From NCBI RefSeq assembly GCF_907164915.1, contig NC_061862.1, positions 81,867,718 to 81,931,717 of the forward strand: a DNA stretch of 64,000 nt, written 5' to 3'. Made by a program: the position numbers and the translations under genes. This document shows, piece by piece, positions 18,797 through 56,095 of this stretch. A model generated the notes under the pieces. The model was not told the DNA's origin. It searched no databases and saw only the letters and a program-made list of their open reading frames with translations. The stretch's first letter is position 1. The number at the start of each line of letters is the position of its first letter. Source of the stretch: Impatiens glandulifera (Eukaryota > Streptophyta > Magnoliopsida > Ericales > Balsaminaceae).

Positions 18797-18804
18797 CTTG
18801 CCAC

Positions 18805-19522: not shown

Positions 19523-19554
19523 TTGAATTATACAAGAATCACCACCAAACGAAC

Positions 19555-19571
19555 TCAGCTCTGATACCACT
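19555..19571 (-). promoter_or_regulatory. Primer-binding site of the Copia
   Basis: On the minus strand TGGTATCAGAGCT abuts the 5' LTR (19572-20120), the initiator-Met-tRNA primer site. Confidence 0.9.
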
Positions 19572-20120
19572 TGTTGGAGAAATCGAATAATAGCACCTGT
19601 TTAGCAATTCAGAAATAAACAAGCTACAACAAGGCCTAACAATTCTTTTTCCCTTTTGTGTAATCAAATAGGCAGCCAAAACAATTGAGCATCAAACAAT
19701 CAAAAACAGAGAGCAGGACACCAAGATTTTACGTGGAAAACCCAAATTAGGTAAAAACCACGGGACACTTCGGCCACTTAAATCATCCACTATATCAAAT
19801 GGGTATACAATGTAGTTCAATACAAGCCTAGAGGTAATCTAACAAAAGTTATCAATTGACCTCATCCTAACTTGTCATTCACATACATTATCATCATCAC
19901 TAAAGATGGCTAACCAAATGGAGAAGAGATAAAAGAAATCAGAAGAAGAACCTGCTGCTGCAATGGAGGAATTGTTGCTTCAATGGAGGAAGAACTGCTG
20001 GAAGAGAGAGAGAAAAATCAACCCAAAAAAAACTGTTGTGTTTTTTCCCCTTAATTAAATAAAGCCCTAATGGGCTTTATTAATTTGTTAGGCCCAGCTG
20101 CCAAATGAGCTGACCCAACA
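19572..20120 (-). repeat. 5' LTR of the Copia at 13586-20120
   Basis: 549 bp, partner of 13586-14135. Visible differences are a few substitutions and small changes in GA and A runs near its right end. Confidence 0.95.
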
Positions 20121-33025: not shown

Positions 33026-33034
33026 CTATATAAT

Positions 33035-33507
33035 CAATCCAGATCTTCTGCTACCGATTGTCGTGTTCCCCTGTGGCGGACCAATCAGATTGCAGCATTA
33101 TTATTTTAATAATAAATCAATCTGGGTAGGAGACGGAGGGAGGTAGAATTCGGAATCCAGGTTTCGTCCCGGGTTCACACAAGACGTCGTTAACGGAAGC
33201 GCCTGTTAACGGCATCACTTAATATAATATTCATATAGCACACGGATAAGATATCTTCGCTCAGAGCACCGTGTTAGAGGGAAGGGTGAGATGCGATGGG
33301 AGCGAAGATATACACGCCCGTTGCCCTGACTCTCATGTAAACCCCCCATACCCACCAATGAAAAGACCGCTTGCCTTCCATGAAAATACACTTACACGTC
33401 TATGTAAAGACCAAAATGACATGGATTTTATATTTCCGTTTATGAAATAATAATTTAATTTATTAAAAATCACATGCAGCGATATAATATTCGCCTCAAT
33501 TACTTGG
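33035..33507 (+). repeat. Left terminal inverted repeat of the giant MULE
   Basis: About 470 bp matching the reverse complement of 55434-55901 with scattered substitutions. It includes a CCAATCAGATTG segment, the near-palindrome GTTAACGG...CTGTTAACGG and the first GCGAAGATAT motif. Confidence 0.93.
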
Positions 33508-34160
33508 CTCTAATTTTTTTTGTTTTTTTTAATTTAATTTTTTTGGCCTGGAGACCCTCATGAGCGAAGATGTATTTGCTTAAATAAATTTTAATAAAAA
33601 CATCATGTAAACCCCCCATACCCACCCATGAGAAGACCGCCTGCCTGCCATGGCAAGACACTTACCCGTCTATGTGAAGACTAAAATGACATGGATTTTA
33701 TATTTCCGTTTATTAAATATTAATTTAATTTATTAAACATCACATGCAGCAACCGAACAAATCTTCGCCTCAATTACTTGGCTATTTTTCTTTTGTTTTT
33801 TTTATTTAATTTTTTTTGCCTGGAGACCCTCATGAGCGAAGATATATTTGCTTAAATTAATTTTAATAAAAACCTCATGTAAACCCCCCATACCCACCCA
33901 TGAGAAGACCGTCTGCCTACCATGGAAAGACACTTACTAGTCTATGTGAAGACCAAAACGACATGGATTTTATATTTCCGTTTATTAAATATTAATTTAA
34001 TTTATTAAAGATGACATGCAGCAACCGAACAAATCTTCGCCTCAATTACTTGGCTATTTTTTTTTATTAATTTTATATTTCTGTTTATTAATAAATGTTA
34101 ATTCAATTAATTTAAAATGACATCCAGCAATATAATATTCGCTTCAATTAATTCATTCAT
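33330..34160. repeat. Subterminal tandem repeat, three ~270-bp units
   Basis: Units start at about 33331, 33600 and 33876 with TCATGTAAACCCCCCATACC. They continue through GAAGACCG..., CACTTAC.CGTCTATGT, GACATGGATTTTATATTTCC and GAGACCCTCATGAGCGAAGA. A fourth diverged unit follows to about 34350. They are the reverse-complement counterpart of modules at 54590-55620. Confidence 0.85.
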
Positions 34161-34339
34161 ATTTTTTTTTATTTAATTTTTTTTGCTGGTAAAGAATATT
34201 TGTTCGCCTAGACCATGTTCCATGTAAAATGGATTGAATAGTCGCTTCTCGAGAGAACACTTATTCGCCCCTGGTCCCTGTGTCATGTGACATGGAATGA
34301 ATAGTCGCTTTTCGAAAGAAGACATGTTCGCCCCGGTTA

Positions 34340-34482
34340 CATGAATATATATACCCCCTAATATGATTATTTTATAATCATTTCCGCCCGATTCATCTCT
34401 CTCTCTTCCTGCCTCCTTTCACGGCGATTCGCAACCTGCTCCCCGTCGACCAAACCAGAAGCAACATCTTCACGTCTCCAAA
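34340..34482 (+). promoter_or_regulatory. Promoter/leader of the BRCT gene
   Basis: GAATATATATACCCCC near 34345 is a TATA-like element about 140 bases before the ATG, followed by a CT-rich leader (CATCTCTCTCTCTTCCTGCC) typical of plant 5' UTRs. Confidence 0.5.
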
Positions 34483-35654
34483 ATGGTACGTATTCATGAA
34501 TAGTAACTTTTCATATTTAGGATTATGGAACTACTAAACTAGATTATGTTTTGTGATGTCGTTGTCTCGTTAATCTTTAGGAAACCCTACTCTCAAAATG
34601 TCACCTTCAATGAAAATCCATCGTATTTAGGAAAACTTACCTAGTGTTAGGTTTTGGGATATTATTTCCATGAAACCCTAGTATACTAACAAAGACCGTT
34701 TTTTTTTATGCACGTGCAGGCAACCGCCACAGCATCCGTCCAAAACTTTGGCAAAGACTGGATTTTATGCCCAAATCAATTAACAAGTGAAGAGATAGTA
34801 CTATTCTTGACATATCTCCCTTTTTTTCCATATTGTTTAAGTTTTCATCCTGTTTATCTGAAATATTTATGATTGTTCTTAAACAGCACTTGATGCAACA
34901 ATATGCTAACACATGTGGTGCCACGGTGACAATGAGGTGGCGAGACGATGTGACCCACGTCATAGCATCCACCGATTCTAATGGTGGATGCAGTCGCACT
35001 ATCAAAGTATTGAAGGCAATATTGAACGGGAGTTGGGTCCTTACCATTGATTGTGAGACTCTGTTATTCTTAACCCTTTACTCTTAACTCAATATTCATT
35101 TTCACATATATGAAACTAAAAATACCTATTGCTTTTGTACAGGGATAAAATCATCAATCAGATTTAACTGTTACGTGGACGAGGAACCATACGAGGTGCA
35201 GCGAGATAATCATGGGACTGTGGGTGGTCCAAGAGCTGGCAGAATGCGGTATTTGAACAATGTAAGTTTTGTCTTATTCCTACTACTCCTCCATATGATA
35301 TTCAATTCTCCATGATTACTAAAAATGTTTTGTATTTTCTTTCAGCTGCCGAAACTTTTCGACAGTTACACCTTTATATTTGCAGGGGAATTTATCCCGG
35401 CTTACAAACTGGATCTTATGGGGTTTGTAATTGCTGGAGGAGGTACAACTAAAGAAATGGAGAATCCATTTGTTGAGCCCGAGGATGACAAAACTATAGT
35501 TGTATACGACAAGTCTCGGCACGATGTTGATGAACTTGTTTGGGTATTTGAGGCAGAGAATCCTTTGACGACATATTTGGATGTATTTGGTGTTCCTCAC
35601 ACAAGCTTGCTAGAATCTATTGTTGCTTGTGATTTGCAGCCTTTGTTGTTGTAG
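34483..35654 (+). CDS. Tandem-BRCT protein resembling the BARD1/BRCA1 C terminus, inside the MULE
   Basis: Five exons with GT-AG introns: 34483-34485 (ATG only), 34720-34797, 34887-35052, 35143-35261, 35346-35654. The sum is 675 bp, 224 codons plus stop, phase preserved throughout. Visible features are NFGKDWILCPNQLTSEEI, then BRCT 1 with ANTCGATVTMRWRDDVTHVI, ASTDSNGGCSRTIK and LNGSWVLTIDWIKSSIR. Next come DEEPYEVQRDNHGTVGGPRA and RMRYLNN, then BRCT 2 with PKLFDSYTFIFAGEF and LMGFVIAGGG. This order and spacing match the C-terminal phosphopeptide-binding BRCT pair of plant BARD1/BRCA1, nuclear DNA-repair and chromatin factors. The RING and PHD-type parts are absent. The second BRCT is followed by an unusual tail lacking a clear terminal BRCT tryptophan helix. 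The protein may be expressed; function is unknown. Confidence 0.85.
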
Positions 35655-36269
35655 ACATGTGTTGGTTGAATTTGTTACTGAATATTTGAATAGTTTGCAT
35701 TCTTGAATTTGTTAATGTTATATTTGATTTCAGTTTTCTCTTTTTTGTTCTTAGAATTGTGTTTTTTTAAAACACCCGCCTTATATTAAACTAAATCTTG
35801 AAACATGAAGAAATAATGTATAACTTAAGTATAAATTTTTATTCATTTATTAATACATAGCAATCTATGTAACTTAATCGTCCCTAATGTGATAAATAAT
35901 TAAAATGTTTTTAAACAACTGTCAAAATAATATTTCTAACACAATTGTCAAAATAATAATGTGAAGCAATCTTCGCTTTCTGATTGATTGATTGATTTAT
36001 TAATATTAATTCATAATAATTTTAGTAATTTAATTATTAAAATGAAATATTTTTTTATTCAAGTCACCTCACCGCCACCTAACACCTGCAACCTTTTCAT
36101 TAAATGCTGCATGGCAGCAAGGCATGCTGCTAAGCTAGACAAAGTTTGTACTGTTTTCTCTCTCACCTGTACGACCATTTCTTCGCCGGAGTGATACTCC
36201 ATTGTCTACCATCGACCTCTCCTTCGCCGGAGACTTCATTATAATATCAATCCATCTTCCTAAATTAAA
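35655..36269. other. Spacer with the BRCT 3' region and transposase leader
   Basis: AT-rich 3' sequence, then a C-rich stretch from about 36060 (GTCACCTCACCGCCACCTAA, TTCTCTCTCACCTG) that probably forms the 5' UTR of the transposase gene. No other gene is visible. Confidence 0.5.
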
Positions 36270-39022
36270 ATGGTATGTTCTTGAAGGTCATCTATACCTT
36301 CTTTACTTTTCGTCCCAACCTTTTTTATGTTTTTTGAATACTCGACATGAAATGTTCTGTTCTGGTTGATTATCAGGAAGGAACACATATGAGCGAGAAT
36401 GATATGAACGAGAATGATATTAATGATTTAAGGTAACATGGTTTAACTTTTCTAATTTTTTTCGTGCATATGTAAGCGAAGATCTCTTCACTAGGAGCTT
36501 TTTTGATAATATCTTATAAAGCGAAACTCTATTCGCCTAATATTACAATGTTATTAATGTTGAAGTGAAGCGCTCTTCGCTTATATTGTCTTCATTTTAC
36601 AATAATCTACAAGTTTTGGTTAGTTGAACCTTTATTTTCCACGTGTTCAAATTGAACAGCGAATCTGCTACTTGTCGTCGTCAATTGAATTTCGATGGAA
36701 ACGGCCAACCTTTGGAGGACATCGAAGCCAACTTAATTCCACATTTAGGTAGGGAATTTGAGAGTGAAGAAGAAGGCTACGTATTCTACTTAGCATACGC
36801 TAAACTAATAGGATTTGGTATAAGGCGCAGTTCAAAACATGTAGACAACGATGGTAAAATACTGGATAGAGTTTTTTGTTGTAGTGCACAGTGTGAACGG
36901 GGAAAAGACAAACGTGATGTCTATGTGAGACGTAGCCGTTCTGTGACGAGGTTCGGTTGTGAAGCGAAATTGAGGATAAAGAGGTCAGACAATGGAAAGT
37001 TCCAAGTGGTAAATTTTATTAGTGATCATAGTCATCCTCTTGCAAGTCCAAAGAAAACTCACCTGTATAGATGCCATAGGAATATTTCTACAGTTGCAGG
37101 CTTACATATCGAGATGGCCACTAACGTGGGAATTCCTCCTAAGTCATCACATGCTCTAATGTCTAAACAAATCGGTGGAAGGGAGAATCTAGGTTTTCTT
37201 CCTGAGGATTACAAAAATTACCTGCGCACGAAAAGAACCAGAGAGTGTAATTTTGGGGAAACTGGGGGTGTATTAGAGTATTTGCAGAAAAACAATCCAG
37301 TGATCCTGGTTTTTATAATGCTTTTCAACTTGATGCGGACGATTTGATAACGGATATTTTTTGGTGTGATTCCAACATGCGGTCCGATTATTCATACTTC
37401 GGAGACGTTGTCAGTTTTGACACCACATACAAGAAGAAGAATGAAGGTCGTCCAGTTGCGCTTTTTGTAGGTGTCAATCATCACAAACAATCAATCATTT
37501 TTGGAGCAGCTCTATTATACGATGAAACTGCGATGACTTTTGATTGGTTGTTTGAGACTTTCACCAAAGCTATGCGTGGGAAAAAACCAAAAACCATTCT
37601 TACAGATCAAGACGCGACCATGGCTAAGGCCTTGGCGTCTACATGGCCCGAAACAAATCATCGTCTCTGTATTTGGCACATATTTCAAAATGCAGCCATA
37701 CATCTTAGCTCCGTGTTCCATAATTACAGAGAATTTTCTAAGGATTTTTCTTCTTGTATATATGATTTTGAAGAAGAGATAGAGTTTGTTGAAGCTTGGA
37801 ATCAAATGTTGACAAACTACGGGCTTGAAAACAACGATTGGTTGAAACGCATGTTTAGCATTAGGCGAAAGTGGGCATTAGTCTATGGACGACAAATGTT
37901 TTGTGCTGATATGACGACAACACAAAGAAGTGAGAGTATGAACAGTTTGTTGAAAAGGTACTGCTCCTACAAACACAAGTTTTTAGAATTTTTCAAACAC
38001 TTTGAAAGACTAATCGATGAAAGAAGATATGATGTGTTGAAGGCTGATTTCAAATCAATTACCAGTCAACCAAGTCTTAACTATCCAGTTTTGATCTTAA
38101 AGGATGCCTGCAAAGTTTACACCCCAGAGGTATTTAAGTGATTTGAACAACAATGGTTTTTGTCGCATGATTGTGGTGTAGAAATGTTAGAGGATGTCGA
38201 CACACACAGAAAATATAAGGTAACACCCCACACTAGGAGATGCTCTCATACAGTTACAGTTCATAAGAATGATGATAAAAATATCGAGTGTAGCTGCTGT
38301 AAATTTGAATTTAGAGGGATTTTGTGTGCTCACATCCTAAAGATTTTCACAATGATTGACGTGTTGAAGATTCCTCCGGCGTTGATATTGAAGAGGTGGA
38401 CAAGAACAGTCAAAGATGGAATATTTGGAACTGATCCCATCGTGGACAGTAGTAATGTTGATCCGAGTGAGCTTCATAACATAAGATACAGAGATTTGTA
38501 TGGCTTGTCCATGCATTTATTTACCAAGGCAGCCGAAAGAGATGACACTTATAAGCATGTCAAAGAAATTATGCTTAGCCAGTGTACGTTTGTGGATAAA
38601 AAATTACAGGAGAGTATAAATATGCAAACTCCACCAACCGGTGTATCATGTTCTGCCGAGGGTGCCCCTGTTCAAGCGAAAGGAATCAAAACTAAGAAGC
38701 CAACAAAGTCTGGTAAGAGAAGGAAAGGTGGACTGGAGAAGAACTCAAGAAAAAGAAAATCAACAAGAATAACTAGCGAATCACAGATTCTGGTATGAAT
38801 TTGTTGACTTACCTTCTTTACTAATAATTGGGTTATTAATATTCATTTAATAACATACTTTTAAATAAATTTGATATACCTTTCCAGCCATCAATTGCAA
38901 TGCCAACGACCACTCCTCAGTTCTCAACTCCTCAACAATGGGACGAAAGTTTCAGCATGGACGCCAATACTCCGTTCACTGTTCTTTTGTCATCTCAACT
39001 ATTGAATTCCAGTTTCATGTGA
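36270..39022 (+). CDS. FAR1-type Mutator-like transposase (one frameshift, one stop)
   Basis: Exons: 36270-36272 (ATG only), 36377-36432, 36660-38792, 38888-39022. Order of domains: FAR1 DNA-binding zinc domain (EFESEEEGYVFYLAYAKLIG, FCCSAQCERGKDKRD, ISDHSHPL); MULE DDE transposase with first D in VVSFDTTYKKK, second D in ILTDQDATMAKAL and E in TQRSESMNSLL; SWIM zinc finger CSCCKFEFRGILCAHIL; a basic tail (KSGKRRKGGLEKNSRKRKS) and a final short exon. It would bind and move the element's ends in the nucleus. Two breaks: the frame shifts by one at an A run near 37280-37286, and an in-frame TGA sits at 38139-38141 before FEQQWFLSHDCG. Otherwise all catalytic residues are kept, so decay is recent or the breaks are read or assembly artefacts. 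Confidence 0.9.
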
Positions 39023-39269
39023 AATCCGAAATTTATTTGTATGTATATTTGATTTGAAACCGAGAAGAAGGTAGAATGTATGCATGCGATGTTTTATGTA
39101 ATAACAAATGAGTGACAACACTAATTAATTTCTAAAAATCCAAATACCTAAATCAATCGAATATTTATTCGCCCCCAGTCGACTCCTATTAAGTATCCTT
39201 TTAATTAAAATTTCAGAATTTAAAACCTAAAACTGAAGCGAATATGTATTCGCTTCAATGAAAACAAGT
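39023..39269. other. 3' flank of the transposase gene
   Basis: Non-coding, with the first ATTTATTCGCC motif at about 39165 and GCGAATATGTATTCGC near 39238. No gene is seen. Confidence 0.5.
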
Positions 39270-40025
39270 ATATGAGGCGAATATTTATTCTCTTCATATT
39301 TCTTTGCTTGAAATTGATATTTTTGTACTATTTGGTATTCACATGTCAGGGTAAGTGTAATGACAGGACAATTAATCCGGCTTCTCATGGGTGGGGTGGG
39401 GGTTTTACATGAACAATAATTTGAGGCGAATATTTATTCGCTTCAATAAAAAGTAGTATTTGAGGCTATTATTTATTCTCTTCATATTTCTTTGCTTGAA
39501 ATTGATATTTTTGTACTATTTGGTATTCACATGTCAGGGTAAGTGTAATGACAGGACAATTAATCCGGTTTCTCATGGGTGGGGTGGGGGTTTTACATGA
39601 ACAATAATTTGAGGCGAATATTTATTCGCTTCAATAAAAAGTAGTATTTGAGGCTATTATTTATTCTCTTCATATTTCTTTCATGAAATTGATATTTTTG
39701 TGGAATTTGGTATTTACCTGTTAGGGTAAGTGCAATGACATGACAATTAATCTGGCTTCTCATGGGTGGGGTGGGGGTTTTACATGAACAATAATTTGAG
39801 GCGAATATTTATTCGCTTCAATAAAAAGTAGTATTTGAGGCTATTATTTATTCTCTTCATATTTCTTTCATGAAATTGATATTTTTGTGGAATTTGGTAT
39901 TTACATGTTAGGGTAAGTGCAATGACATGACAAGTAATCCGGCTTCTCATGGGTTGGGTGGCGCTTCACATATAAATTTTAGCATAATTTTTTAAATAAA
40001 CAAAAAGTGTTTGAAGCGAATATTT
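39270..40025 (+). repeat. Internal tandem repeat, four ~189-bp units
   Basis: Each unit contains GCGAATATTTATTCGCTTC (first exact palindrome 39426-39441), ATTTATTCTCTTCATATTTC, AGGGTAAGTG.AATGACA and TCTCATGGGTGGGGTGGGGG followed by TTTTACATGAACAATAATTT. Units repeat at about 188-189 bp intervals and the last is degenerate. It separates the plus-strand gene pair from the minus-strand genes. Confidence 0.9.
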
Positions 40026-40308
40026 ATGCGCTTCATGTTTCTTTCACTTAAATTATTCGTTGAATACATAAATGAACAAGTATTTGAAAATCAAATTTCA
40101 TTAAAAACAATCTGCATATATACATGTTCACCATTGTCAAAATGTGAAGTAAAATTTTTTGAAAATTTAAATTACACAACATATTCAATATTGTACAAAT
40201 GTGAGTTAAAATTATATGAATAGTTTAATTACTCAATCTGTAGGCATACTAATGTCAACTAAAATTATTTGTAAAATTTAATTACACAATTTGTATACAT
40301 TTCCAAAT

Positions 40309-43300
40309 TCATTGACTCGTCCATTTAATGTAGGAATTGTAGACCTTGCTTCTGGCTTTGTTGAGCTCCGAGCCAATGACACGCCAACAATATCCCATCC
40401 TCAAGGTCTTTATTTGTTCACGTACATTTTTTTAACGCCAAAGCCAGTTTTCCAACCCTTCACCTCACCTTCATACGTCTCCATGTGTCTCATGCAAAAA
40501 ATGCTGCAGTCAGTGTAATTTTTGGAATCCTGCCATGACAATTTCAAACATATCTTTTCCAAACCGCCATACTTATCAGCAAGAACGGGGTCTACGTCGT
40601 TCATATATTGTTGAATGTAGTCATCCTGATACATCATTACAAACCACATGATGTAATCTATTTTAGTGCTACTAGAATTTAATCATTGAACTAGTTGAAA
40701 ATTTAATTGCAGTGTCATACCAAGATTTGTGCATTCTTATATCTTCTTTCGAAGGGCGATTGCATAGGTGTCTGCCTGTTGTCAATTACTTGAAATTGTC
40801 TTTTTATGAAGTTATAGCAAACCAAGTAGAAATGTCTGTCATCAATGATTGGGAAAAACAACTATGGATAGAATTAAAACAAATTAGATTTCAACTGAGT
40901 TTTATATGCTATTATAAGGTATCACAGAGAGAGATGTACTTACGAGGTCCACATCCAAGAGGTCCCTTTTCGAAATTTGGAAAGCCCGACCTTCACGACA
41001 GAACCTTTCATTGAATTGGTCTCGGTTAGTGATCCCACCTTCACGAAAAATCTGTTTACAGCAGTCTTTAGTCTCACAAGAATAACATAATTGATAAATA
41101 ACAGTGCTAGTACAACTTACGGTGAGCACGGTTGTGTAGAAAATCTTATTGTAACGACGTTTTACATTTTTCCTACACAGGTCGTGCAACATGTATGACC
41201 AAATGTCAATAATCATACTGTCTACCCAGGTTTGATCAGCCATTGTAAGCATGTCCCCGCGCGTCACGTGTAGACTTAGTTTGTCCCCAATAAATAACAT
41301 TTCACTACATGAAACCAGAAAAACATGTTTCAGAATGAGGTCCAACTTATATTTTTTATGAATAAGTAAGTATGTCCAGGAAACATTACCTTTGATCAAG
41401 TCCTGTAGCAAATATGAAACCCACAAAAATCTTCTGAATGTTTGTCATTTGTTTTACATCCCTAAACATTTTTATTGAAATATGGGGTTTTCAAAGCTGG
41501 AGGCAATTCCAATGCTTTAAGCCATTCTTTCATTTCCATTTGTGGACGAGAAGAGGTAGTTTGAAGTGGCGGTGGTAGACTGGAGATGCATTCTCCCGGT
41601 TCAATTTTTACTATCGCCAAAGAAGGGGAGTTGTTGTTGGTTTCGGTGTTGAGGACATCGGTTAACCAATCCGTTTTCAAATTCCGGGGGACTTTTCTGT
41701 AGACATTTAAGGCATTTGAAGGTCCGGCTTCTTCTGTTTTTGGGATAATTTGGGGAGGAGGCAAGGCTGGGGTTGTTGGAGTGCTGGTGTTCGTGTGGGT
41801 TTCTGTTTTGGGAGTAATGGGGTTGGCTTTGGGTTTGGCTTGTGCCATTGGAGGGGTTGGGGTTATGGTTAGAGTAATGGGGTTGGGTTTGGCTTGTGCC
41901 ATTGGAGGGGTTGGGGTTTTGATTGGAGGAATGGGGTTGGCTTTGGCTTGTGCCATTGGAGGGTCTTGGGTTGTGGTTAGAGTAATGGGGTTGGGTTTGG
42001 CTTGTGCCATTGGAGGGGTTGGGGTTTTGATTGGAGGAATGGGGTTGGCTTTGGCTTGTGCCATTGGAGGGTCTTGGGTTGTGGTTAGAGTAATGGGGTT
42101 GGGTTTGGCTTGTGCCATTGGAGGGGTTGGGGTTTTTATTGGAGAAATGGGGTTGGCTTTGGCTTATGCCATTGGAGGGTCTTGGGTTGTGGTTAGAGGA
42201 ATGGGGTTGGGTTTGGCTTGTGCCATTGGAGGGGTTGGGGTTGTGTTTAGAGGAATGAGGTTGGCTTTGGCTTGTGCCATTGGAGGGTCTTGGGTTGTGG
42301 TTAGAGGAATGGGGTTGGCTTTGGCTTGTGCCATTGGAGGGGTTGGGGTTGTGTTTAGAGGAATGGGGTTGGCTTTGGCTTGTGCCATTGGAGGGGTTGG
42401 GGCTGTGGTTTTGGTTTCTGTTTTGAGTGGAATGGGGTTCTTGTGGGATTGGGCCGTTGGTGTGAGGGTGGTTTGTGTGTTGTCTTGGTGTGAGGGAAGG
42501 GTGTTGGCTTTGGCTTGGTTGTTGGCGTTGATTTTTTTTGGATGTTGGGAGAAAGGGTGCTCTTGTTGGTTTGGGCTGTTGGATTGGTGTTGGCTTTTGT
42601 CTTTGTTTCGGTGGTGGGGGTTAATGTGTTCTTGTTTGCTGGGGCCGTTGGAGTGGTGTTGGCATGGATGTTGGGAGGAAGAATGTCTGCTTTCGCTTGG
42701 GTGGTGGTTTCTATGTTGGGGTTAGTGCCACTTCCTCTTGGCTGCTGATGTTTAGTTTTGTCCAAGCTCCGTTGTAACCCTTCCCTCAGGATTGAATGGG
42801 AGTTTAGTACAGTGGCCAATGGCTCAAAGGCAGACTGTACAAGTTCCATGGCGTTTATCTGGTGCATCTCATTCAGATATTTAGCCCCTTGTTCCAATTC
42901 GTTTGTAGCGGCCGCAACCTTCCTCAAACATGATGCCAGGTTTTGTGGAATTGGAGCCTGCTCAGTTTGATTGTCATCTCCAGTTTGTGGTGGTGTTGGC
43001 TCCACATTTTGTTGAATCGGTGGTTGCTCATTCGGAATGGCTATGCGAGCAACTACCCTACCATGTCCAAACCGCCCCTGTGCAGCCTCATACTCAACCC
43101 TTTCGTACATCTTCTTCTCGTCCCAGCATCCTAAAATAGGAAAACTCCTTGAGATCTGACTGTTTACCTTGAACTCAACCACACGGTCCAAGTAGCACAA
43201 CTGATACATTAGCATAAACAAATATATGTTACGTTCAAACTCATGAAAATTTTTGAAGGTACAACCTACAGCAAATAGATTTCTACACTCACCAAAAGAA

Positions 43301-44396
43301 ACGTTAATGGTCCATGGAAATAGGATGTCTTTTTTTCTTTCCACTTATAAACACTGTTGACTAGTCCGTCTAACGTGAACTTGCACCAGTTGTAGTCTTT
43401 GATTTTAGATACATCCTGGAGGGATTTCAGTACTTTGAATCTGTACATAAAAAAGGAGTGACTCAAGCCAGTTAAAATGACATTGAAGTTCTAAATGAAA
43501 TCACAGAATTAATGCTAGGTTCTTTGGGTATACCTACACTGTGGATTTTGGGATGTCCACAAAAAACTGGATACAACAAACACCACGAAGTCCATCTTGA
43601 AGTTACTGTCTCATGCTGTGTTCTGTAGAATTTTGTCAGGCATTTGGTAGGTTGAAGGACCTCCACTGTTCTCGAATCCCCATCTCCTTCTCCACGCCGT
43701 GAGATGGTCCTTGTACACATTGTCGTCCGTGTGATTTCCTAAACACTCTGTCACTACTAATTCCCCTCTGGGTATGTTCAATACACATTGAACATCCTCT
43801 TCATCAATCTGCATCTCCTCTCCACTGTGTAGGACGATGCTCCTCCTTCTGGGATTGAATAGACTCACAATGCACCGTGAGAATTGAAGTGGGCATTTTG
43901 ATATGCCAAGTGAAATAAGGGAACCAAATCCTATGTCCCTCACAGCCTGCTTCTGTTCTTCGGATAACCTGTTAATCAGGTTATGAAGGCCCGATGGAGA
44001 GGTTCTGCTCTTAAAATCAACATCTAGGTCACGATTCCTTCTTCTTTTCTTCTTAACCTGGTTCTCATTAATTGCTTCATTAGCCGCGTTGGCCAGAATA
44101 TCTAGTGGTGTCGTGGGCGTGCCTTATGCCTCGGGTTTTCTTTTCCTTTGTTGAACACTACATTAACATTACCAAATTCGATGACATCCATAATCCCAAA
44201 ATAGGCAAATTTGAACATTTTCTAACATTAGCGTAATTACCTTAGTGTGTTAACTTCCGTCGTGGATTCAGTATATGGAACTATTTGCATATCGGAATCC
44301 GGATTCTGAGATGATAGAGTCACATTTAGATTCAAACGAACTCAAATTAGAAAACGAAAAAGACCCACGCATGCAACCGTAAACACTTCTTACCAT
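40309..44396 (-). pseudogene. Ulp1-type (C48) SUMO-protease-like gene A, broken
   Basis: Minus-strand multi-exon gene. It starts with an ATG-only exon at 44394-44396 followed by GTAAG, then an exon at about 44240-44310 and the N-terminal domain (RDIGFGSLISLGISKCPLQF, IDEEDVQCVLNIPRGEL). Further exons carry LKSLQDVSKIKDYNWCKF, LCYLDRVVEF and PILGCWDE, then a proline-rich repeat region (41820-42400). The catalytic exons are GDKLSLHVTRGDMLTMAD (41121-41304), 40944-41051, 40721-40861 with the catalytic H codon at 40832-40834 (DDRHFYLVCYN) and D at 40791-40793, and 40426-40625 with C at 40506-40508 (YTDCSIFCMRHMETY). Stops at about 44124, 43611 and 42164, plus homopolymer frameshifts near 42535 and 41465, break it. 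The family removes SUMO-like modifiers; the catalytic triad is still visible. Confidence 0.85.
41836..42395 (-). repeat. 54-bp coding minisatellite, about 11 copies, in Ulp1-like gene A
   Basis: The unit encodes PPMAQAK(P/A)NPI(T/P)L.TT.. on the minus strand, 18 residues per copy. Plus-strand anchors (GGCTTGTGCCATTGGAGG) fall about every 54 bases. Two subtypes alternate, ending GGGTTGGGGTT or GGGTCTTGGGTT, which suggests expansion of a two-unit block. The seventh copy carries the CAA-to-TAA stop at 42164. Confidence 0.92.
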
Positions 44397-47281: not shown

Positions 47282-47320
47282 CTATAAATAGGGATTACAT
47301 AAACAATCTTCGTCGGCAGC
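47282..47320 (+). promoter_or_regulatory. TATA box and short leader of the orphan ORF
   Basis: GCTATAAATAGGG at about 47281 is a strong TATA box about 36 bases before the ATG. Confidence 0.6.
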
Positions 47321-47611
47321 ATGAAATATTTCGTGAGCATTGTTGTTGAGAGTGTGTGTTTTTTTCAGATAGTTTGTTGGGATGTATCATTTGGGAGATT
47401 CTATGTGATGGAAAACTTGTACAATGAAGATCAACTGGTGGAAAACATCTTCAGTTACTTCGAATTCTTCATACCTCAAGTAGAAACTACCGATCAAATG
47501 AAGATCATTCGTGTCCACTGCTTGTGGGAAGCGCCAACTGTGGGAGATTCCCTGGGATGGAAAACATCTCAAGAGATAACTCAACAGGTGTATGACCCCA
47601 GTTATGCGTGA
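47321..47611 (+). CDS. Unidentified small protein gene inside the MULE
   Basis: A 96-codon open frame. I do not recognise the family. As a single exon it starts with a hydrophobic MKYFVSIVVESVCFF that could be a signal peptide. Alternatively GTGAGC...TTTTTTTCAG just after the fourth codon looks like a very short intron (about 50 bases), giving MKYF joined to IVCWDVSFGRF in the same frame. The rest is acidic and aromatic (ENLYNEDQLVENIFSYFEFF, WEAPTVGDSLGW). A TATA box precedes it, and decayed relatives of its upstream region and first codons (GACATGAAAAATTTCGTGAG near 46431) lie just to the left. It may be an element-specific gene. Confidence 0.5.
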   Translation: MKYFVSIVVESVCFFQIVCWDVSFGRFYVMENLYNEDQLVENIFSYFEFFIPQVETTDQMKIIRVHCLWEAPTVGDSLGWKTSQEITQQVYDPSYA

Positions 47612-48471
47612 GAGATCCGCTGTGGTCGCTTCAATGGAGATGCATTGAAGCTGGATATGCAGATGAATAGTGTTAAAATGTAAAAATGTTTATGAAACGT
47701 AGAAATGTTTATGAAACTTGTAATGAAATTTTGTTCATCGAATTATAATAAATATTTGTTATTTATATTTTCATGCACATTTCATTAAACATTTATAAAA
47801 TATCGAATTTATTAGAAATAATAAAGTATTATCATATCTACTCTTCTGGCTAAGTATACGTTTCCCATAAGTGAAATCATTGCCATAATTGTAATATGAC
47901 GTGACATGTAATGTAAAATGTTTTGGCGCTTCTTCAATCATTCAACCCTTGATTGGATTTAATATACAAGCGAATACATTTTCGTTCAATGTTGTAGACC
48001 TCAAATATGAATATCAAGCGAATTGTATTTCGTTTCGTAACAATGTTGGGTTTAATATAGAAACTTACAAGCGAATGATTCTTCGTTTTCAATCACATGG
48101 TTAAAAGTAATACACTAACAAACAAACGAAGAAATGTCCGTTCGATTTACTAATTAGATACTGTGTGATGAAGCGAACAACCAATCGATGGATCAATGTA
48201 AGGGGTTTACATGAACACATCAGTTGTTTTACATTATACTTTGAATTGATAATGACATACAAATTGCAATCAAACAATCAAACATAACAATAATGATTCG
48301 ATTTATATCACTCCTAAATAAACTAACTACATAATGTAAAATATAACTTCAGAATATAATCAAACATAACTTCATAATATACCCTAAACACAAAAACATT
48401 CCATAATCCGTTTACATAAGTACTACACAGATTAACCAACAAAATAGCTGTTCAAAAATACAAATGAAGCT
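47612..48471. other. Non-coding spacer with motif copies
   Basis: AT-rich 3' sequence of the orphan ORF and the PMD-like gene. Short forms of the element's TTCG/CGAA motifs occur (GCGAATACATTTTCG near 47970, GCGAATGATTCTTCG near 48072) with a partial TTTACATGAACAC block near 48208. No gene is seen. Confidence 0.5.
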
Positions 48472-49626
48472 CTAGTCTGATTCATGAGAGGATGACTCGT
48501 CAATCGGTCCTGTCATCGACACGATCTCATGTTCGATGACGGGTGGAATGTATAGATGAATGGCTTCGTTCACAGCATTGATCCATCGGTTGGGGATTGA
48601 AACCGTAAAAGAATTTTCAATTATTGATGCGTACTCTAGGTAAAGATGGTGAGGAGTAAGCATGAAGTCCTCCGGAGGATTGAGTCCATTCGAAAGTAGT
48701 GGATTCCGTAGGCCAAATTGTCTGAATATGACAGTTGTGCAGTAGGAGGTAGTTCCCTCAAGGCCCAACAAAATGATGAATGGAGAACCCCTCATCTTGT
48801 ACATCATTACACTAAAGAGATACCACGGAACAATGAACCTAATTGGGTGAATATCCGAAATAAAATTCGGAGGCACGAGTCCATTGACCCTTTGCACTTG
48901 TAGATTGGCAAAGGAAGTGTAGGGAATTGAAGGACGGGGCAACCAATGCAACTTGTCTAACAACCAGAGGTAGAGAACCAAAGGTGATCCACGGCGAGAA
49001 TAGTTGTTTTCCTCTGGAACAAATTCGTTAAGACCAAGTAATGTCTCAGCAAGTACAAGGCTAGCCAGGTTTGGGGCGTTTCCCATCAGTGCAGGAACTA
49101 CCTGCAGGATCCTATCCGAAGGCCGTCGTCCTGCAGTCGGACATATAAAAAAATGAGCCAGAATCACAAGCATGATCAGTTTGCTTTGTGTGTGGTTGAT
49201 GGTCCTCTCAGCTCCCTGGACACGCCAAATGTACTCGTCTATGTTTGTCATATTCAGAAATCCATGTTGGAGGGTAAACAAAAGAGCATCAAACATTGTA
49301 CATCCATAGAAGCTGTTGCAAATGTTGAAGGCTCTATGAGGATCTTGATTGACAGGCAAAATCATGAGTGCAAGACTACCACACCTAAGGATTGAAGCAA
49401 AGTCCTCTATCGTCGGGCATATGTGCATTTCCCCAATAACAAAAGAACGAGAGTCCGTATTCCATCTGCTTTGCATGTGGGCCATCAGTCCGTCGTGAAC
49501 GTTTATTCGTAAAAGAGGTAGAATCTCATCTACATGATAGACACTAAAAGGGACAGGGTCATCGTTGATCAGACTTAAGTATCGCTCCAGCTGTTGCTGC
49601 GATAAAACCAACATGTCTGGGTCCAT
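48472..49626 (-). CDS. Aminotransferase-like / plant-mobile-domain-type protein, intact
   Basis: A single-exon frame of 384 codons starting MDPDMLVLSQQQLERYLSL (ATG at 49626; an upstream in-frame ATG at 49707 is possible but its leader looks like UTR). It has VDEILPLLRINVHDGLMAHM, then the domain core with SRWNTDSRSFVIGEMHICPT and IEDFASILRCG, and a long alpha-helical region (LAHFFICPTAGRRPSDRI, VPALMGNAPNLASLVLAETL, YLWLLDKLHWLPRP). It ends acidic (DESSSHESD). This resembles the plant mobile domain and its DUF7745-type relatives, common in transposons and in a few silencing-related host proteins. No stops or frameshifts, so it may be under selection in the element. The family call is by pattern only. 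Confidence 0.65.
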   Translation of the reverse strand: MDPDMLVLSQQQLERYLSLINDDPVPFSVYHVDEILPLLRINVHDGLMAHMQSRWNTDSRSFVIGEMHICPTIEDFASILRCGSLALMILPVNQDPHRAFNICNSFYGCTMFDALLFTLQHGFLNMTNIDEYIWRVQGAERTINHTQSKLIMLVILAHFFICPTAGRRPSDRILQVVPALMGNAPNLASLVLAETLLGLNEFVPEENNYSRRGSPLVLYLWLLDKLHWLPRPSIPYTSFANLQVQRVNGLVPPNFISDIHPIRFIVPWYLFSVMMYKMRGSPFIILLGLEGTTSYCTTVIFRQFGLRNPLLSNGLNPPEDFMLTPHHLYLEYASIIENSFTVSIPNRWINAVNEAIHLYIPPVIEHEIVSMTGPIDESSSHESD

Positions 49627-49859
49627 CTCTATCCATCTTATGAGTTTTACACTAAATGACTGAAGGAAAGACACCGGTAGATAGAGATTTGGGAAGGAAA
49701 GAGTCAAAACAGAGAGAGAGGTGAGAGTGAGAGTGTAGTGTGAGAGTGAGAGTGAGGGTATGAGAGTGATGATGTTGATACATCAGTAGTTGAAGTAATA
49801 AATGAGTTTTCATTCTTGAAATCACATCAATACATAACTCCGGTAGGTGCATTACATGT

Positions 49860-50300
49860 TGTGAAGATATCTTCGTATTATAATTTTTAGTTCATGTAGT
49901 TACGAATATATATTCGTCTAGGAATTTAAAAACATATATTGAAGAAGATATCTTCGTCTCTGATTTTCAAAATATCGATTGTACCCCAAAAAAACTTAAG
50001 AAGATATCTTCGTTTAGGAATTTGAAAATATATAGTGAAGAAGATATCTTCGTTTATAAATTTGCAAACATATAGTAAACGAAGATATCTTCGTCTCTGA
50101 TTTTCAAAATATGGATTGCACCAAAAAAGAACATAAGAAGATATCTTCGTCTAGGAATTGGAAAATTTATAGTTAAGAATAGGGCCACAAGAAGACATAA
50201 GAAGATAATTTCGTTTCAAAGGTGGTCATCATGTCAATATTACGGTTGCAAGTTTATCAGTTTCATCATGTTAAGAATATATCTTCGTTTAAGAATATTA
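49860..50300. repeat. Cluster of GAAGATATCTTC palindromes
   Basis: GAAGATATCTTCGT or near variants occur about eight times (around 49863, 49945, 49995, 50038, 50084, 50136, 50192, 50277), spaced about 40-80 bases, upstream of the PMD-like gene on its minus-strand reading. The stretches between are short AT-rich repeats such as AGGAATTTGAAAATATATAG. Confidence 0.85.
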
Positions 50301-50555
50301 CAGTTAAGAAAATAACCTCGTTTAGGATTTCAAAAATATGGGTACAAGAAGACATATCAAACATCAATACATTATAAGCAATTCATTATAACTCCATACA
50401 TTAAGATCTGAATTGCATTCCATACATTAAGATCTGAATTGCATTATAAGTTATAATTCAATATCAAACATCCATACATTAAAAATAGGTTAATTGACCT
50501 GTGTAAACATAAGAATTACTGTACAAGTATAATTCCATATAACACATACAAATCC

Positions 50556-53500
50556 CTAATATCTTGATCTAATTGCAGTCTTTAACTTGAACCTATTGAC
50601 ATTGTGCTTAGACATAATAATTCTGTATAAATATTTTATCCTCAATGTACTCAAAGCTTCTTTGGCCTTCAAAAGAACAAGAGAAAGTATAAGAACATTT
50701 AAAATTGTTAAATGTCATAGAATAACATATGGTATAACACTTACATTATTTTCGTTGATGTCAATAGACCAACCCTTCATCGATCCTCTATATGTTTCCA
50801 TATGTCTCATTAAATATACACCACAGTCTGTCTTGTTTGTTTGGTCAGTCCAAGGCAGCTTTGGGGCCGTTATCCTGTATTTCTTAACCTTTTCCGCCAA
50901 TCTTTGTATGCCTTGCATTTCCAAGAAAGTCGAAAAACTATCGACTTGATTCCTCAAATGGACATACTTGTCCAAAATTTTCATTCGATACGGACGACCG
51001 AAGTTGTCTAGTACATTGATGTGGGAGTCTATAATATTCACACATACAAGAAAGAAATGTCCGGAAATGACGACAGGTAGGAATATCTGTAAAAAGAACA
51101 TAAACATTTATTATTTTATTGCATTCTCGTTACTTGGAATTGAGGGATATGTACATACCAGGTCAGCGAAGATGAGGTCTTCTTTTGTGACATGGTAGTT
51201 TCTCATGTCTTCTTCAAGGGCTTGGCAAAATAAGAGAGTATCATGCTCCAGACTAACCTGCAAAATAAGGGTGGAGACTCAAAGCAAAATAACATGGTAG
51301 TTTCTCATGTCATGAACATTGAAGGATACATAGCACAAAACAAGAGAAGCACTTACATGTGAAATTGATGAAAAACAAATTATTCGTGGTTCATGCCTTG
51401 GCAACCTACGGCATTTGAAGTGCACAATTATGGACCAAGCGTCCACCACTTCGCTCGCAATTTCTTTACCCATTTTCACTATTTGAAATAGACTACGGGT
51501 GATATTACCCGGTGCACCTTCGTACAGAACGTCCCTGCAAAATACATTCATTTAGAAGACCATAACTAACTAATTTCATATTTCAAATTTCGAAAAGCAT
51601 GAGAGGTAACTTACATTGGAGGCAGGTCTTCATCAAACACAAAATCGGCTAATCTCTGTTCCTTGTTGGTTATTTTGTGGTCCAACATATCCGCAACCTA
51701 TTGCATGTAAGGGGATCGAAGGTGCACAGGAATTTTCGTGATCTTCCTCCTAGGATATTCTCTAATGTTGATGCGTCCCCCCCATCATCTTCATCTTCAG
51801 AAGATTCAACGGCCTTAGAAGCCTCAACCTTTTCCTTGCCGTCACCCTGATCATTTGGTGCAACAGACTGAGCTTTGGGTTCCGCAACATGTTCCTTCCC
51901 TTCACCCTGATCATTTGGTTCAACATGCTGCGCTTTGGGTTCCTCAACCTATTCCTTCCCTTCACCCTGATCATCGTCTTCAACAGTGGGTGTCTGCACT
52001 TTGGGTACCTCATCCGGTTCCTTCCCTTCACCCTGATGATCAGTTGGTTCAACACTGGGTGAGTCATCTTTGTTGGGCAGAACTGCATCCTCAGGTTTGT
52101 CCTGTTGAGAAGGGGGTGACTTGGCTTGAATGGGCTGAAATGCAGCCTCTACATCTTCATGTTCAACAAGGAGTGATTCATCGTCAATGTCCTGACCTAC
52201 ATCCTCAACATTTTTCGGTTGAACAGGGAGTGACTGAGCTTCATTGTATAGAACGGCATCATCGAGATCATTCGGTTCAACGTGATCTGAGCGATTTTCT
52301 TGATTTGGCATAACTGCATCCTCAAAATCATTCTGTTCAACCCGTGCTGGTGGATTGTCTACATGGTCCTCCACTGCAGTCTCATAGGGGTATTCAACTG
52401 GGGGACTATTGATTTTCAAGCCTGCACACAGTAAAGTGTCCCCAAGTGCCTCACTTGGAGGATCTTCCACACCTACACGAACCTCACCATCGTTCAACAC
52501 CTTCAAGTGTTTCATGAACCCTTCAGACTCTCTTAGGTTCAGGAAACCGGCCTCAAAAAAAGGCTTCGGATCGATGTTGCGTTTCTCCAACTCCCCTGAT
52601 AGGTAATTCAGCTGTTGGGCTGTATCTTTAAAAGTTTGCAGGATTTTGGATGTCAACATCTGTACATTATGAAAAACAGATTTCATTAATCTTGAAAACA
52701 GGATAATATAGACAAATGGGAGTCAATTTCTTGTTTCCACATACCTCATCATCGTCTTCTTTTACTTCAACCGAGTCAACTAGATTCTCGGGTTGTTTAG
52801 CTGCTAGGCGCGCCCTTGCACGGCCCAACCCAAAACCACCGGCACAAACTTCTAGGTTGGTGAACTCTAACACTATGACGTCATCCCAACAAGAGATTAT
52901 TGGAAATTTTCTTTCGTAGGGCAGACGTTCACCTTCCACAAAAACACCATCTAGGTAGCAAATCTGGAGTAAAGGAATGGGAAACATGTTAGAAAATATT
53001 TGATGTCTATAAATCATATACAAGAGAGGCAACATTACTTACCAATAAAAGGGTTATAGGTCCATCAAAATATGGATTTTTATCTTTACTTGCTTTTTGT
53101 TTCCAACTTCTTACACTGTCAACCAACCGTTGGAGTGTGAAGTGGCACCAGTTCAGTTCCTTTATGTTATCAACATCCATTAAGGATTTGAGAATTTTGA
53201 ACCTGAAATGAAATAAATACATGTGTCAGTATTCACAAATACAATTAGATATATAATAGGTTTGAATACATGTTTACCTGGCTCGTGAATTTTGAACTGG
53301 ACATAAAAAACTTGAGACAACAAAGACAACGAAGTCGATTTTGAAATCGTTGTCTGCACTTGTGTTACTTAATATCTTGGGGATCATAGAAAGTGTTTCG
53401 GGAGCTTTTGAGTCTTCCCCGGTCCATCTGGTCTTCCAATCCCTCAAGAAATTATAAAAATCAGGGTCCTTAGTTTTGTCCCCCCCAACGGACTCAACTA

Positions 53501-54336
53501 CGTTCATTGCCCCTCTAGGGAGGTTCATCACCAGCTGTACGAGATCTTCATCGATAAGGATCTCCTCACCGTTGGCCAATACCAGAGAACTCTTATCCGT
53601 GTCAAAAGCTTGGATTACATGTCTGGAAAAATGCGTAGGGCACTTGGAGACACCCATTGTAAGAAGAGAACCAAACCCGATTTGCTTCACGGCTTCCCTC
53701 TGTTCTACGCTCAATTTAGGAATCAGTTGAGCAAGGCCATGAGGTGATGATCTTGTTAGAAATGTCAGTTTACGTTTCTTCATGGTTTTGTTTTTTTGGG
53801 GAGATGGTGGTAACTCTTCATCGAATGGTGTAGTACACGGAGAAAGATTAGTGGTTTCTAGGGGTGGTTCTGGTAACTCTTCATCAACTGTTGGAGTGGA
53901 GGTAGGAATAACATCGGGTTTTTTTTGAGGGGGAAAAGGTGGTGGTATAATCTCATCAAAATGTTGAGTACCTACAGAAATATCAGTAGCTTCGACAGCA
54001 ACTGTGGAAACTGATTCAGCAGTTGATGACGACTTCGTATTCGTCTTCGGATTTCTCTTCCTCTTCCTTTCATAAACCAAGTTATTAAACCTCGAAGTGA
54101 TTATTTTTGGTGGGATAGCATAAATCAGTATTCAACTAAATAAATTGAATAAACATGTGTAAAATTAGTATAAACACAATAAGATTAACCTACCTCTCTG
54201 GTTTATTGCGGGGATTGACGTTGGATGCGGGATTGGGGGCAGTTTCGTTTTCGTTTATGCTCCTACAGACTTGCAAGACGACCTCTCGGGAGTCGATGGT
54301 ATCCACTTCCATGTTGTTGACTTGGTTCTCTGACAT
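50556..54336 (-). pseudogene. Ulp1-type (C48) SUMO-protease-like gene B, nearly complete
   Basis: Nine minus-strand exons with GT-AG junctions: 54194-54336, 53278-54090, 53043-53202, 52745-52963, 51615-52659, 51357-51534, 51159-51257, 50745-51086, 50556-50666. The N-terminal domain has QIGFGSLLTMGVSKCPTHF and IDEDLVQLVMNLPRGAM; then LKSLMDVDNIKELNWCHF and ICYLDGV, an acidic repeat-rich linker exon, and the protease domain. Catalytic codons: H 51057-51059 (ISGHFFLVCVN), D 51006-51008 (INVLDNFG), C 50823-50825 (TDCGVYLMRHMETY). The last exon ends RIKYLYRIIMSK ... SRY. All exons keep phase except the linker exon, which has a TAG at 51949, a frame change near a G7 run (51772-51778) and a TAG at 51698. 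A cryptic intron removing this stretch cannot be excluded. Paralogue of gene A. Confidence 0.85.
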
Positions 54337-54589
54337 CTTCAGAAGAAATCCTTGTAGAATAAAAGAAATCTCTAGGGTTTCGACGTTGAGTGTTTGGATG
54401 ATCGTCGGGAGATAGAGAGAGAAGAATATGAACAGTTTCTTATGAAAATGAAAATGATGGAGAGTGGGATTGTAACGGGAAATTGAAATTGTATCAACAA
54501 GTAATGGAAGCGAATAAATATTCGTTCGATATCGTAACTTCTTAAAAAAATTCATAAAATAAATTGAAAATAAAAACTATTATTCGAAG

Positions 54590-55620
54590 CGAAGATTTAT
54601 TCGCGGGATATAAATGCACGGGTAAGTGAATTTACATGACAGGCAAGTGGTCTTCTCATGGGAGGGAAGGGGGTTTTACATGAACGTCAGCCTAAAAATA
54701 TGTGAAACGAAGAAATATTCGCTTTCAATCGTCTCCTCGTAAAAAAAATAAAAAAAATTAAAGTGAAATAATTAAAGCGAATATTTGGTCGTTTCATGCA
54801 TGTCATTTTAAATTAATTGAATTAACATTTATTAATAAACGGAAATAAAAAATTAATAAAAAAATAGTGAAGTGATTGAAGCGAAGATTTGTTCGGTTGC
54901 TGCATGTCATCTTTAATTAATTGAATTAATATTTAATAAATGGAAATATAAAATCCATGTAATTTTGGTCTTAACATACATGGGTAAGTGTCTTTCCATG
55001 GCAGGCGGGCGGTCTTCTCATTGGTGGGTTGGGGGTTTACATGATGTTTTTATTAAAATTAATTGAAGCAAATATATATCTTCGCTCCTGAGGGTCTCCA
55101 AGCCAAAAAAATTAAATAAAAAATTAAATAAAATTCCTAAAAAAATGAATGAATTAATTGAAGCGAATATTATGTCGCTGCATGTGATTTTCAATAAATT
55201 AAATTAATATTTAATAAACGGAAATATAAAATCCTTGTAAAATTGGTCTTTACATAAACGGGTAAGTGTATTTTCATGAAAGGCAAGCGGTCTTCTCATG
55301 GCTGGGTATGGGGGTTTACATGAGGGTCAGGACAACGGGGCGTGGAGATCTTCGCTCCTGCATGTCATTTTTAATTAATTGAATTAATATTTAATTTTAG
55401 GAAATATAAAATTCCTAAAAAAAATGAATGAATTAATTGAAGCGAATATTATATCGCTGCATGTGATTTTTAAGAAATTAAATTAATATTTAATAAACGG
55501 AAATATAAAATACATGTAATTTTGGTCTTTACATAGACGTGTAAGTGTATTTTCATGAAAGGCAAGAGGTCATCTCATGGGTGGGTATGGGGGGTTTACA
55601 TGAGGGTCAGGGCAACGGGC
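54590..55620. repeat. Right subterminal repeat array
   Basis: Four modules, each with ACATACATGGGTAAGTGT-type, CATGACAGGCAAG.GGTCTTC and CATGGGTGGG..GGGGGTTTACATGA parts, at about 54615-54690, 54975-55040, 55250-55330 and 55535-55610. AGCGAAGATTTATTCGC or AGCGAATATTATATCGCTGC motifs lie between them. This is the inverted counterpart of 33330-34160. Confidence 0.85.
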
Positions 55621-55901
55621 GTGTAGATCTTCGCTCCCATCGCATCTCACCCTTCCCTCTAACACGGTGCCCTGAGCGAAGATATCTTATCCGTGTGCTA
55701 TATGAATATTATATTAAGTGATGCCATTAACAGGCGCTTCCGTTAACGGCGTCTTGTGTGAACCCGGGACGAAACCCGGATTCCGGATTCTCCCTTCCTC
55801 CATCTCTTACCCAGATTGATTTATTATTAAAATAATAATGCTGCAATCTGATTGGTCCGCCACAGAGGAACACGACAATCGGTAGCAGAAGATCTAGATT
55901 G
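55434..55901 (-). repeat. Right terminal inverted repeat of the giant MULE
   Basis: Reverse complement of 33035-33507; ends GCAGAAGATCTAGATTG at 55901. Directly followed by the CTGATATAAT target copy. Confidence 0.93.
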
Positions 55902-56095
55902 CTGATATAATAGACTAGTAGTAAGATTTTTCAAATTGTTATATTGTGATAAGATTGTATTTGATATTTTAAAATTATTAAAGTATATTTTAGTTGTAAG
56001 CCCATAAGGAGCACTGATATAATAGACTAGTAGTAAGATTTTTCAAATTGTTATATTGTGATAAGATTGTATTTGATATTTTAAAATTATTAAGA
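55902..56095. repeat. Tandem duplication of the MULE target flank
   Basis: The block CTGATATAATAGACTAGTAG ... TTTTAAAATTATTAA occurs twice (55902-55980 and 56014-56093). The link between the copies, GTATATTTTAGTTGTAAGCC ... CATAAGGAGCA, is also the sequence immediately left of the MULE (32996-33025). So the original target region appears on both sides of the element. Confidence 0.85.

Follow-up and report, generated by a model that had tools for sequence, protein, structure and literature searches.

The 64,000-nucleotide stretch of Impatiens glandulifera DNA analyzed here (the window; C1:81867718-81931717 of the 654-Mb assembly) carries, at positions 33035-55901, a 22.9-kb Mutator-like element (MULE) of the type bounded by terminal inverted repeats (TIRs). 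This interval is one mobile element rather than a patchwork of insertions, and its genes encode a transposase, a stand-alone protein with tandem BRCT domains, two Ulp1-like proteins (ULP1 and ULP2), and a PMD/DUF7745-like protein. It is moderately likely that the family spreads because both Ulp1-like proteins act as motif-guided anti-silencing factors. The initial annotation of this DNA had proposed that the gene set might act on chromatin or repair during transposition; the pattern seen in the sequences of the copies fits a more specific version of that idea, in which the two Ulp1-like proteins would provide sequence-specific anti-silencing.

Copies of the element in the genome

Genome-wide counts given here are lower bounds, since only the best candidates of each search were scored. 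When the best 40 of 1268 candidates for the left TIR were scored, at least 10 converging pairs 12-23 kb apart were found, the window pair included. Eight of the nine non-window pairs were analyzed (E1-E8), and in all eight an exact stretch of 9-12 bp, different in each, is common to both ends (GGAAGACAA, CACCACCAT, GAAAAGTAC, TATATAAAT, TAAAACATA, CAAAATAAT, CTAAGCTAAT, and ACCAAATAG; stretches longer than 9 bp may take in a base of the element). Four of the eight (E2, E3, E6, and E7; 21.9-23.0 kb) have the full gene order of the window element and are 94-96% identical to it. The other four are internal deletions that lack the segments corresponding to 41428-47304 (E1), 41056-48806 (E4), 40390-50525 (E5), and 34488-42697 (E8), the last of which removes the BRCT and transposase genes.

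Younger copies were reached through the N-terminal exon of ULP2, for which the best 136 of 2576 candidates were scored and all 136 were matches. No internal stop is present in 112 of them, and the scores of 18 are identical, a sign of a young burst. A copy from the identical-score group (Y1; C1:55020727-55043654, 22,928 bp) and another from a different young group (Y3; C8, 23,258 bp) are both full length with the same gene order. In their main segments they share about 80-93% identity with the window copy, and gene order is unchanged over subfamilies that are about 5-20% apart in DNA. Seven full-length copies (window, E2, E3, E6, E7, Y1, and Y3) therefore agree in their segments and in the order and orientation of these. 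The target duplication of Y3 is CAAAGTACT; in Y1, no duplication could be read, and the left flank is interrupted by an assembly gap some 30 bp from the end. Six further end pairs were predicted within the identical-score group, and exact duplications flank two of them (AAATGTAGG and CCAAAGTCT). An exact target duplication was thus found at 11 of the 17 loci read (E1-E8, Y3, and these two young end pairs).

The BRCT gene is part of the core cargo. All 40 of the best 40 of 766 BRCT candidates scored match at 96-100%, and 13 of the 40 have a convergent ULP2 match within 40 kb, compared with 0.16 expected; one of these 13 pairs spans two neighboring elements, and four are copies already analyzed. 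The claim that the interval is a single mobile unit had been tied in the initial annotation to a test, the existence of further full-length copies that keep the gene order but differ in their target duplications, and it passes that test.

Movement appears to have continued until very recently. Over the transposase stretch, the copy at C5:11.23 Mb, which carries the AAATGTAGG duplication, shows one difference from Y1 in 2701 bases, and the gene is open in both copies with one amino-acid difference. Agreement at 2700 of 2701 bases between copies on different chromosomes indicates that the family moved very recently. Synonymous divergence (dS) between Y1 and Y3 is 0.011-0.015 in the BRCT, transposase, and PMD-like genes (0.011 in the transposase), whereas it is 0.28 in the C48 half of ULP2, a disparity most simply explained if the C48 half was exchanged between lineages. 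As separate observations, two ULP2 matches with the identical young score are oppositely oriented and separated by 4.3 kb (C2:2158622, -; C2:2162902, +) and represent adjacent or inverted young insertions, and at the low end of the copy at C6:6731660 a CTATTAATA duplication stands about ten extra bases away from the terminus, perhaps reflecting an altered end.

In the window itself, the inverted arms (33027-33534 and 55402-55909) measure 508 nucleotides and are 92% complementary; the pair of about 470 bp reported initially is real. The element ends at 33035 and 55901, which places the left TIR, further copies of which occur in the genome, at 33035..33534 (+) and the right TIR at 55402..55901 (-). 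Its termini are CAATCCAGATC and CAATCTAGATC, and the other fetched copies either end identically or depart from this sequence in the first few bases. The near-perfect 9/10-bp target duplication noted earlier is likewise present, with CTATATAAT on the left (33026..33034) and CTGATATAAT on the right (55902..55911); it is imperfect in that the left copy is one base short. The right host flank at 55902-56095 is a tandem duplication with a unit of about 113 bp, part of which also forms the end of the left flank. Thus, the element seems to lie within a small host repeat, and the base that the left target duplication lacks is visible.

Genes and the constraint upon them

Six gene-like units had been recognized in the initial annotation. 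The transposase, BRCT, two Ulp1-like, and PMD/DUF7745-like units are confirmed as gene models, all five of them complete and open in Y1, whereas the remaining orphan unit is not convincing as coding sequence. Domain and structure matches support the transposase, BARD1-like, and Ulp1-like identities assigned earlier. The FAR1/MULE/SWIM transposase gene (36404..38798, +; exons 36404-36432 and 36660-38798) forms an open frame of 722 amino acids in Y1. It is broken in the window copy by a frame change near 37288 and a stop at 38139, and the window pieces match the MULE (PF10551, E = 1e-28), FAR1 (5.8e-21), and SWIM (1e-8) domains. An intron was considered as an explanation for the stop at 38139 but was set aside, since other copies are open at this position.

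The BRCT gene (34483..35654, +), which lies downstream of a TATA box at 34346 in the window copy, opens with an exon that consists of the ATG only (34483-34485), followed by GTACGT, and continues through exons 2-5 (34726-34797, 34887-35052, 35143-35261, and 35346-35654, +). With this exon structure it encodes 223 amino acids in Y1. The closest solved structures are the tandem BRCT domains of BARD1 (chain 3fa2_A, E = 1.4e-14 over query positions 15-170 of 223) and BRCA1 (1.5e-10). The protein resembles plant and animal BARD1/BRCA1 in its tandem BRCT domains but differs in standing alone, since its 223-residue gene model holds BRCT only, with no RING or PHD. BARD1 is a double-strand-break repair protein. 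The phosphoserine pocket of the BRCA1 and BARD1 BRCT domains has Ser-Gly, and the corresponding positions of the element protein read P-N-Q or similar. The element protein is 44-47% identical to plant relatives that are 57-67% identical among themselves, which implies either that the capture is old or that the captured copy has evolved faster. A literature search limited to titles and the beginnings of abstracts, with subscription journals thinly covered, found no element with a BRCT gene inside a transposon among the papers listed, and the combination of MULE, BARD1, and transposon returned only a general review of DNA repair, judged by its title.

Both Ulp1-like genes are oriented opposite to the transposase. 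ULP1 (40309..44290, -) has eight exons in which the catalytic H/D/Q/C codons are present, and ULP2 (50556..54336, -) has nine exons and a Peptidase_C48 domain; in Y1 the two proteins are 1146 and 1103 amino acids long, and in the window copy both genes contain stops. Each has a variable middle with a tandem peptide array, built of 54-bp units in ULP1 (41829..42410, -) and 60-bp units in ULP2 (51822..52041, -). With 49% identity over 292 N-terminal positions and 29% over 309 C48 positions, ULP1 and ULP2 are, judging from their sequences, paralogues. The C48 domain exceeds the Pfam cutoff of 20.7 in both proteins of Y1 (21.3 bits in ULP1, 41.3 bits in ULP2). Of the copies that cover the catalytic residues, nine of nine for ULP1 and 11 of 11 for ULP2 retain H, D, and C, and window ULP2 has T in place of the catalytic Gln. 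A word-based protein-database search with ULP2 gave one weak match, in Tagetes erecta (E = 4.5e-3), which does not prove absence elsewhere, and its C48 part matched only SENP structures in the PDB, at E = 0.012 or worse.

The single-exon PMD/DUF7745-like gene (48472..49636, -) encodes 388 amino acids in Y1. The earlier label of PMD-like retains some support from similarity below threshold to DUF7745 (21.8 bits, cutoff 26) and PMD (PF10536, 11.8 bits, cutoff 34.9), although the PF10536 cutoff is not reached and the label is accordingly a weak one. Its predicted fold has a mean pLDDT of 34.7. A comparison with the PDB gave nothing useful, and a word-based protein-database search gave no match, which does not by itself prove absence. 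The stretch formerly called an orphan gene (47303..47611, +) is conserved but is not counted as a gene, because its coding status is not convincing: its alignment between subfamilies, judged by eye, contains indels and many amino-acid-changing differences. A sorting-nexin FERM match to this stretch is weak (20.1 bits, cutoff 26.7) and was not trusted.

Constraint was measured as the ratio of nonsynonymous to synonymous divergence (dN/dS) in 13 chosen pairs per gene, E1, E4, and E5 being outside the chosen pairs, and values were obtained for pairs that share at least 80 codons. Between Y1 and the window-type copies, this ratio is 0.14-0.20 for BRCT, 0.26-0.33 for the transposase, 0.46-0.62 for ULP2, 0.40-0.65 for the PMD-like gene, and 0.66-0.72 for near-complete ULP1, with 0.31 for the 436 ULP1 codons left in E8. 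The BRCT gene thus has the lowest ratio, and its position as the most constrained gene is a hint that the element benefits from it. Zones of the ULP proteins were compared in 10 chosen pairs, of which those with at least 30 codons were used. Between Y1 and window-type copies, the N-terminal domains give 0.18-0.44 and the C48 domains 0.38-0.67. The tandem-repeat middles of both proteins are mostly near 1, with some ULP2 pairs at 0.58-0.79 and a short middle piece left in E8 at 0.35.

Motif arrays and a proposed role in anti-silencing

The strongest noncoding words in Y1 are CGAAGAT and its extensions; GCGAAGAT occurs 24 times against 0.21 expected, and its coding count scaled to the same length is about one. 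In the window, CGAAGAT is present 28 times in the element and seven times in 40.8 kb of flank, with a mean of 2.06 (maximum 5) in shuffled element DNA, and AGCGAATA is present 19 times in the element and not at all in the same flank, with a mean of 0.50 in shuffles. Nearly all of these sites lie outside the mapped exons, and those exons make up 10.5 of the 22.9 kb (27 of 28 for CGAAGAT and 19 of 19 for AGCGAATA). They are found in a left subterminal array of tandem repeats of about 272 bp that holds CGAAGAT motifs (33332..34076) and in a 187-bp tandem array with AGCGAATA motifs (39234..39961). The right subterminal array has repeats of about 279 bp (54797..55637), and a noncoding tandem array of GAAGATATCTTCG-type units (49863..50179) has a counterpart of the same kind in Y1. 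Internal motif clusters far from the ends are located at 39.2-40.0, 44.6-46.7, and 49.9-50.3 kb. Within motifs, CpG is changed in eight of 448 cells, compared with 92 of 1773 in other noncoding DNA, but this difference is weak and is not main evidence, given that the cells are not independent and that the same copies served to define the motifs. Another noncoding word, CATGTAAAG, was observed 12 and eight times in the young copies Y1 and Y3, and zero or one time in the four window-type copies counted; target-like words may thus differ from one subfamily to another.

These features recall the VANC system of Arabidopsis Hiun/VANDAL21. VANC21 binds YAGTATTAY in noncoding tandem repeats of VANDAL21, whereupon methylation is lost over whole elements; VANC proteins have variable regions with tandem peptide motifs, and their short noncoding target motifs stand in tandem arrays (PMC5735166). 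RNA-directed DNA methylation targets the same noncoding regions as VANC (PMC10398659). The element described here likewise combines a MULE transposase with extra proteins that have conserved domains and a variable tandem-peptide region, and likewise carries short motifs in noncoding tandem arrays. Since VANC-type features are repeated here with different sequences, the reading with the best support is that ULP1 and ULP2 act in motif-guided anti-silencing.

A possible order of events can be outlined. Each Ulp1-like protein would be guided by its N-terminal domain and variable middle to the CGAAGAT/AGCGAATA arrays, which lie in promoters, introns, and subterminal repeats, and its C48 domain would there strip SUMO from silencing proteins, the presumed chemical step. 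Removal of SUMO would then lead to loss of methylation and repression across the whole element, after which the transposase, once expressed, would move the element by cut and paste through its TIRs. The BRCT protein might serve as an adaptor that reads phosphoproteins or chromatin, either at these sites or at breaks, which is a guess, and the PMD-like protein might interfere with MAIN/MAIL-type silencing; these two roles are the weakest. In a broader and less probable proposal, this giant MULE would be self-sufficient and, with its own chromatin-control kit of two diverged, motif-guided deSUMOylating anti-silencers that have exchanged halves among subfamilies and a most-constrained BARD1-derived BRCT reader, could have escaped silencing and so have amplified very recently.

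MULEs that carry ULP1 genes were reportedly the subject of work by van Leeuwen in 2007. Such elements occur in melon, rice, and grapevine (PMC13317346, PMC2528002), and in KI-MULEs (Kaonashi) the Ulp1-bearing gene runs opposite to the transposase (PMC2528002), as it does here. KIU is a VANC with a Ulp1 domain whose role is stated to be unknown (PMC13317346). The present element differs from these in that its Ulp1-like genes form a pair of paralogues, its TIRs are long, and it carries BRCT and PMD/DUF7745-like genes as well. VANDALs are several kb long, whereas this element is about 23 kb, with two such genes and no DUF1985 match above cutoff. PMD-C has been captured in MULEs of grasses and Amborella, and an anti-silencing role was suggested by the authors (PMC5418596). 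A PMD-related protein is again found inside a MULE here, but as a separate single-exon gene below the PMD cutoff and not fused to the transposase. Like Pack-MULEs, the element holds host-derived sequence within MULE termini, although Pack-MULEs have gene fragments and no transposase while this element has whole genes and a transposase. With a MULE-domain transposase, long TIRs, and target duplications of the 9-11 bp kind, the element is classed from its sequence as a TIR-type MULE; its long TIRs and the lack of a DUF1985 match above cutoff keep it apart from the VANDALs and KI-MULEs.

The family offers a system for testing why transposons so often carry Ulp1-like genes. Its young copies are nearly identical, its two Ulp1-like paralogues have diverged and show recognizable functional zones, its candidate target motifs stand in defined arrays, and the Ulp1-like genes are where its subfamilies differ most. 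In addition, a host-type BRCT gene has been kept whole and constrained by a DNA transposon, whereas most captured sequences reportedly decay (PMC13317346). The element is also a multi-gene MULE three times the 7 kb limit quoted for reported Pack-MULEs (PMC6431247).

Several findings weigh against anti-silencing by the Ulp1-like proteins as the basis of the spread of this family. VANDALs (PMC13317346) and KI-MULEs are described as non-TIR elements, while this one has TIRs of about 500 bp. DUF1985, the VANC domain, matches ULP1 only below threshold (14.2 bits, E = 0.044, cutoff 35.1), and the domain search gave no DUF1985 match on ULP2. Tandem duplication inflates the motif counts, as it does for VANC targets. 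None of the eight window-type copies that still contain the transposase gene has it intact, each stop or frame change being private to one copy, and it is also broken in Y3. No clean duplication was seen next to the predicted ends in four of the six additional young end pairs: in two of these both ends are present with no duplication adjoining them, and in the other two a single end is present. Among window-type copies alone, dN/dS is often nearer 1 (ULP1 0.78-1.11, PMD-like 0.64-0.93, ULP2 0.62-0.90), as would be expected from decay after insertion. Furthermore, some intervals for ULP end domains exceed 1 (1.08 for the ULP1 N-terminal domain in Y1-E3 and 1.27 for ULP2 C48 in Y1-E0), and the confidence interval for the PMD-like gene is wholly below 1 in only four of 10 pairs that involve a young copy.

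Alternative explanations and flanking sequence

The motif arrays might instead be by-products of subterminal amplification or binding sites for the transposase, with the Ulp1-like proteins acting elsewhere. MULE transposases bind TIR and subterminal DNA, and many CGAAGAT sites do lie in the subterminal repeats adjoining the TIRs. The internal clusters far from the ends fit this account poorly, however, and it is rather unlikely to be correct.

An unlikely explanation is that the extra genes serve transposition and repair, such that the BRCT and Ulp1-like proteins modify SUMO- or phospho-dependent repair factors and the 23-kb element moves whole. The match to BARD1 and the strongest constraint being on BRCT (dN/dS 0.14-0.20) agree with such a role, and help with large cargo is plausible for an element so far above the 7 kb quoted for reported Pack-MULEs (PMC6431247). 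Nevertheless, a repair function leaves unexplained both the motif arrays outside exons and the fast-evolving tandem-repeat middles, and the BRCT pocket reads P-N-Q or similar, not the Ser-Gly of BRCA1 and BARD1.

It is very unlikely that the extra genes are merely passengers, old captured sequences that have no role for the element. MULEs do carry captured gene sequences that mostly decay (PMC13317346), and deletion derivatives without most of the genes (E5 and E8) also bear target duplications, which means that they moved or were deleted after insertion. Yet deletion copies can be mobilized in trans, and the low dN/dS of BRCT and of the ULP end domains, the complete exon structures and intact frames in Y1, and the same five-gene order in seven full-length copies all speak against passenger status.

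A patchwork of separate insertions, which the initial annotation had named as the case that would refute its own claim, is hardly credible, for although Copia-type sequence on both sides suggests that insertions are common in this region, this explanation was ruled out by the seven full-length copies with the same segments, order, and orientation and by the convergent ULP2 matches near 13 of 40 BRCT matches.

The Copia-type retrotransposon pieces (RVT_2, integrase, and gag) are located at 14949-19600 (-) and 60860-63428 (-). Farther out, an open frame with a G-patch_2 domain at 11780-12235 (+) is possibly part of a host gene.

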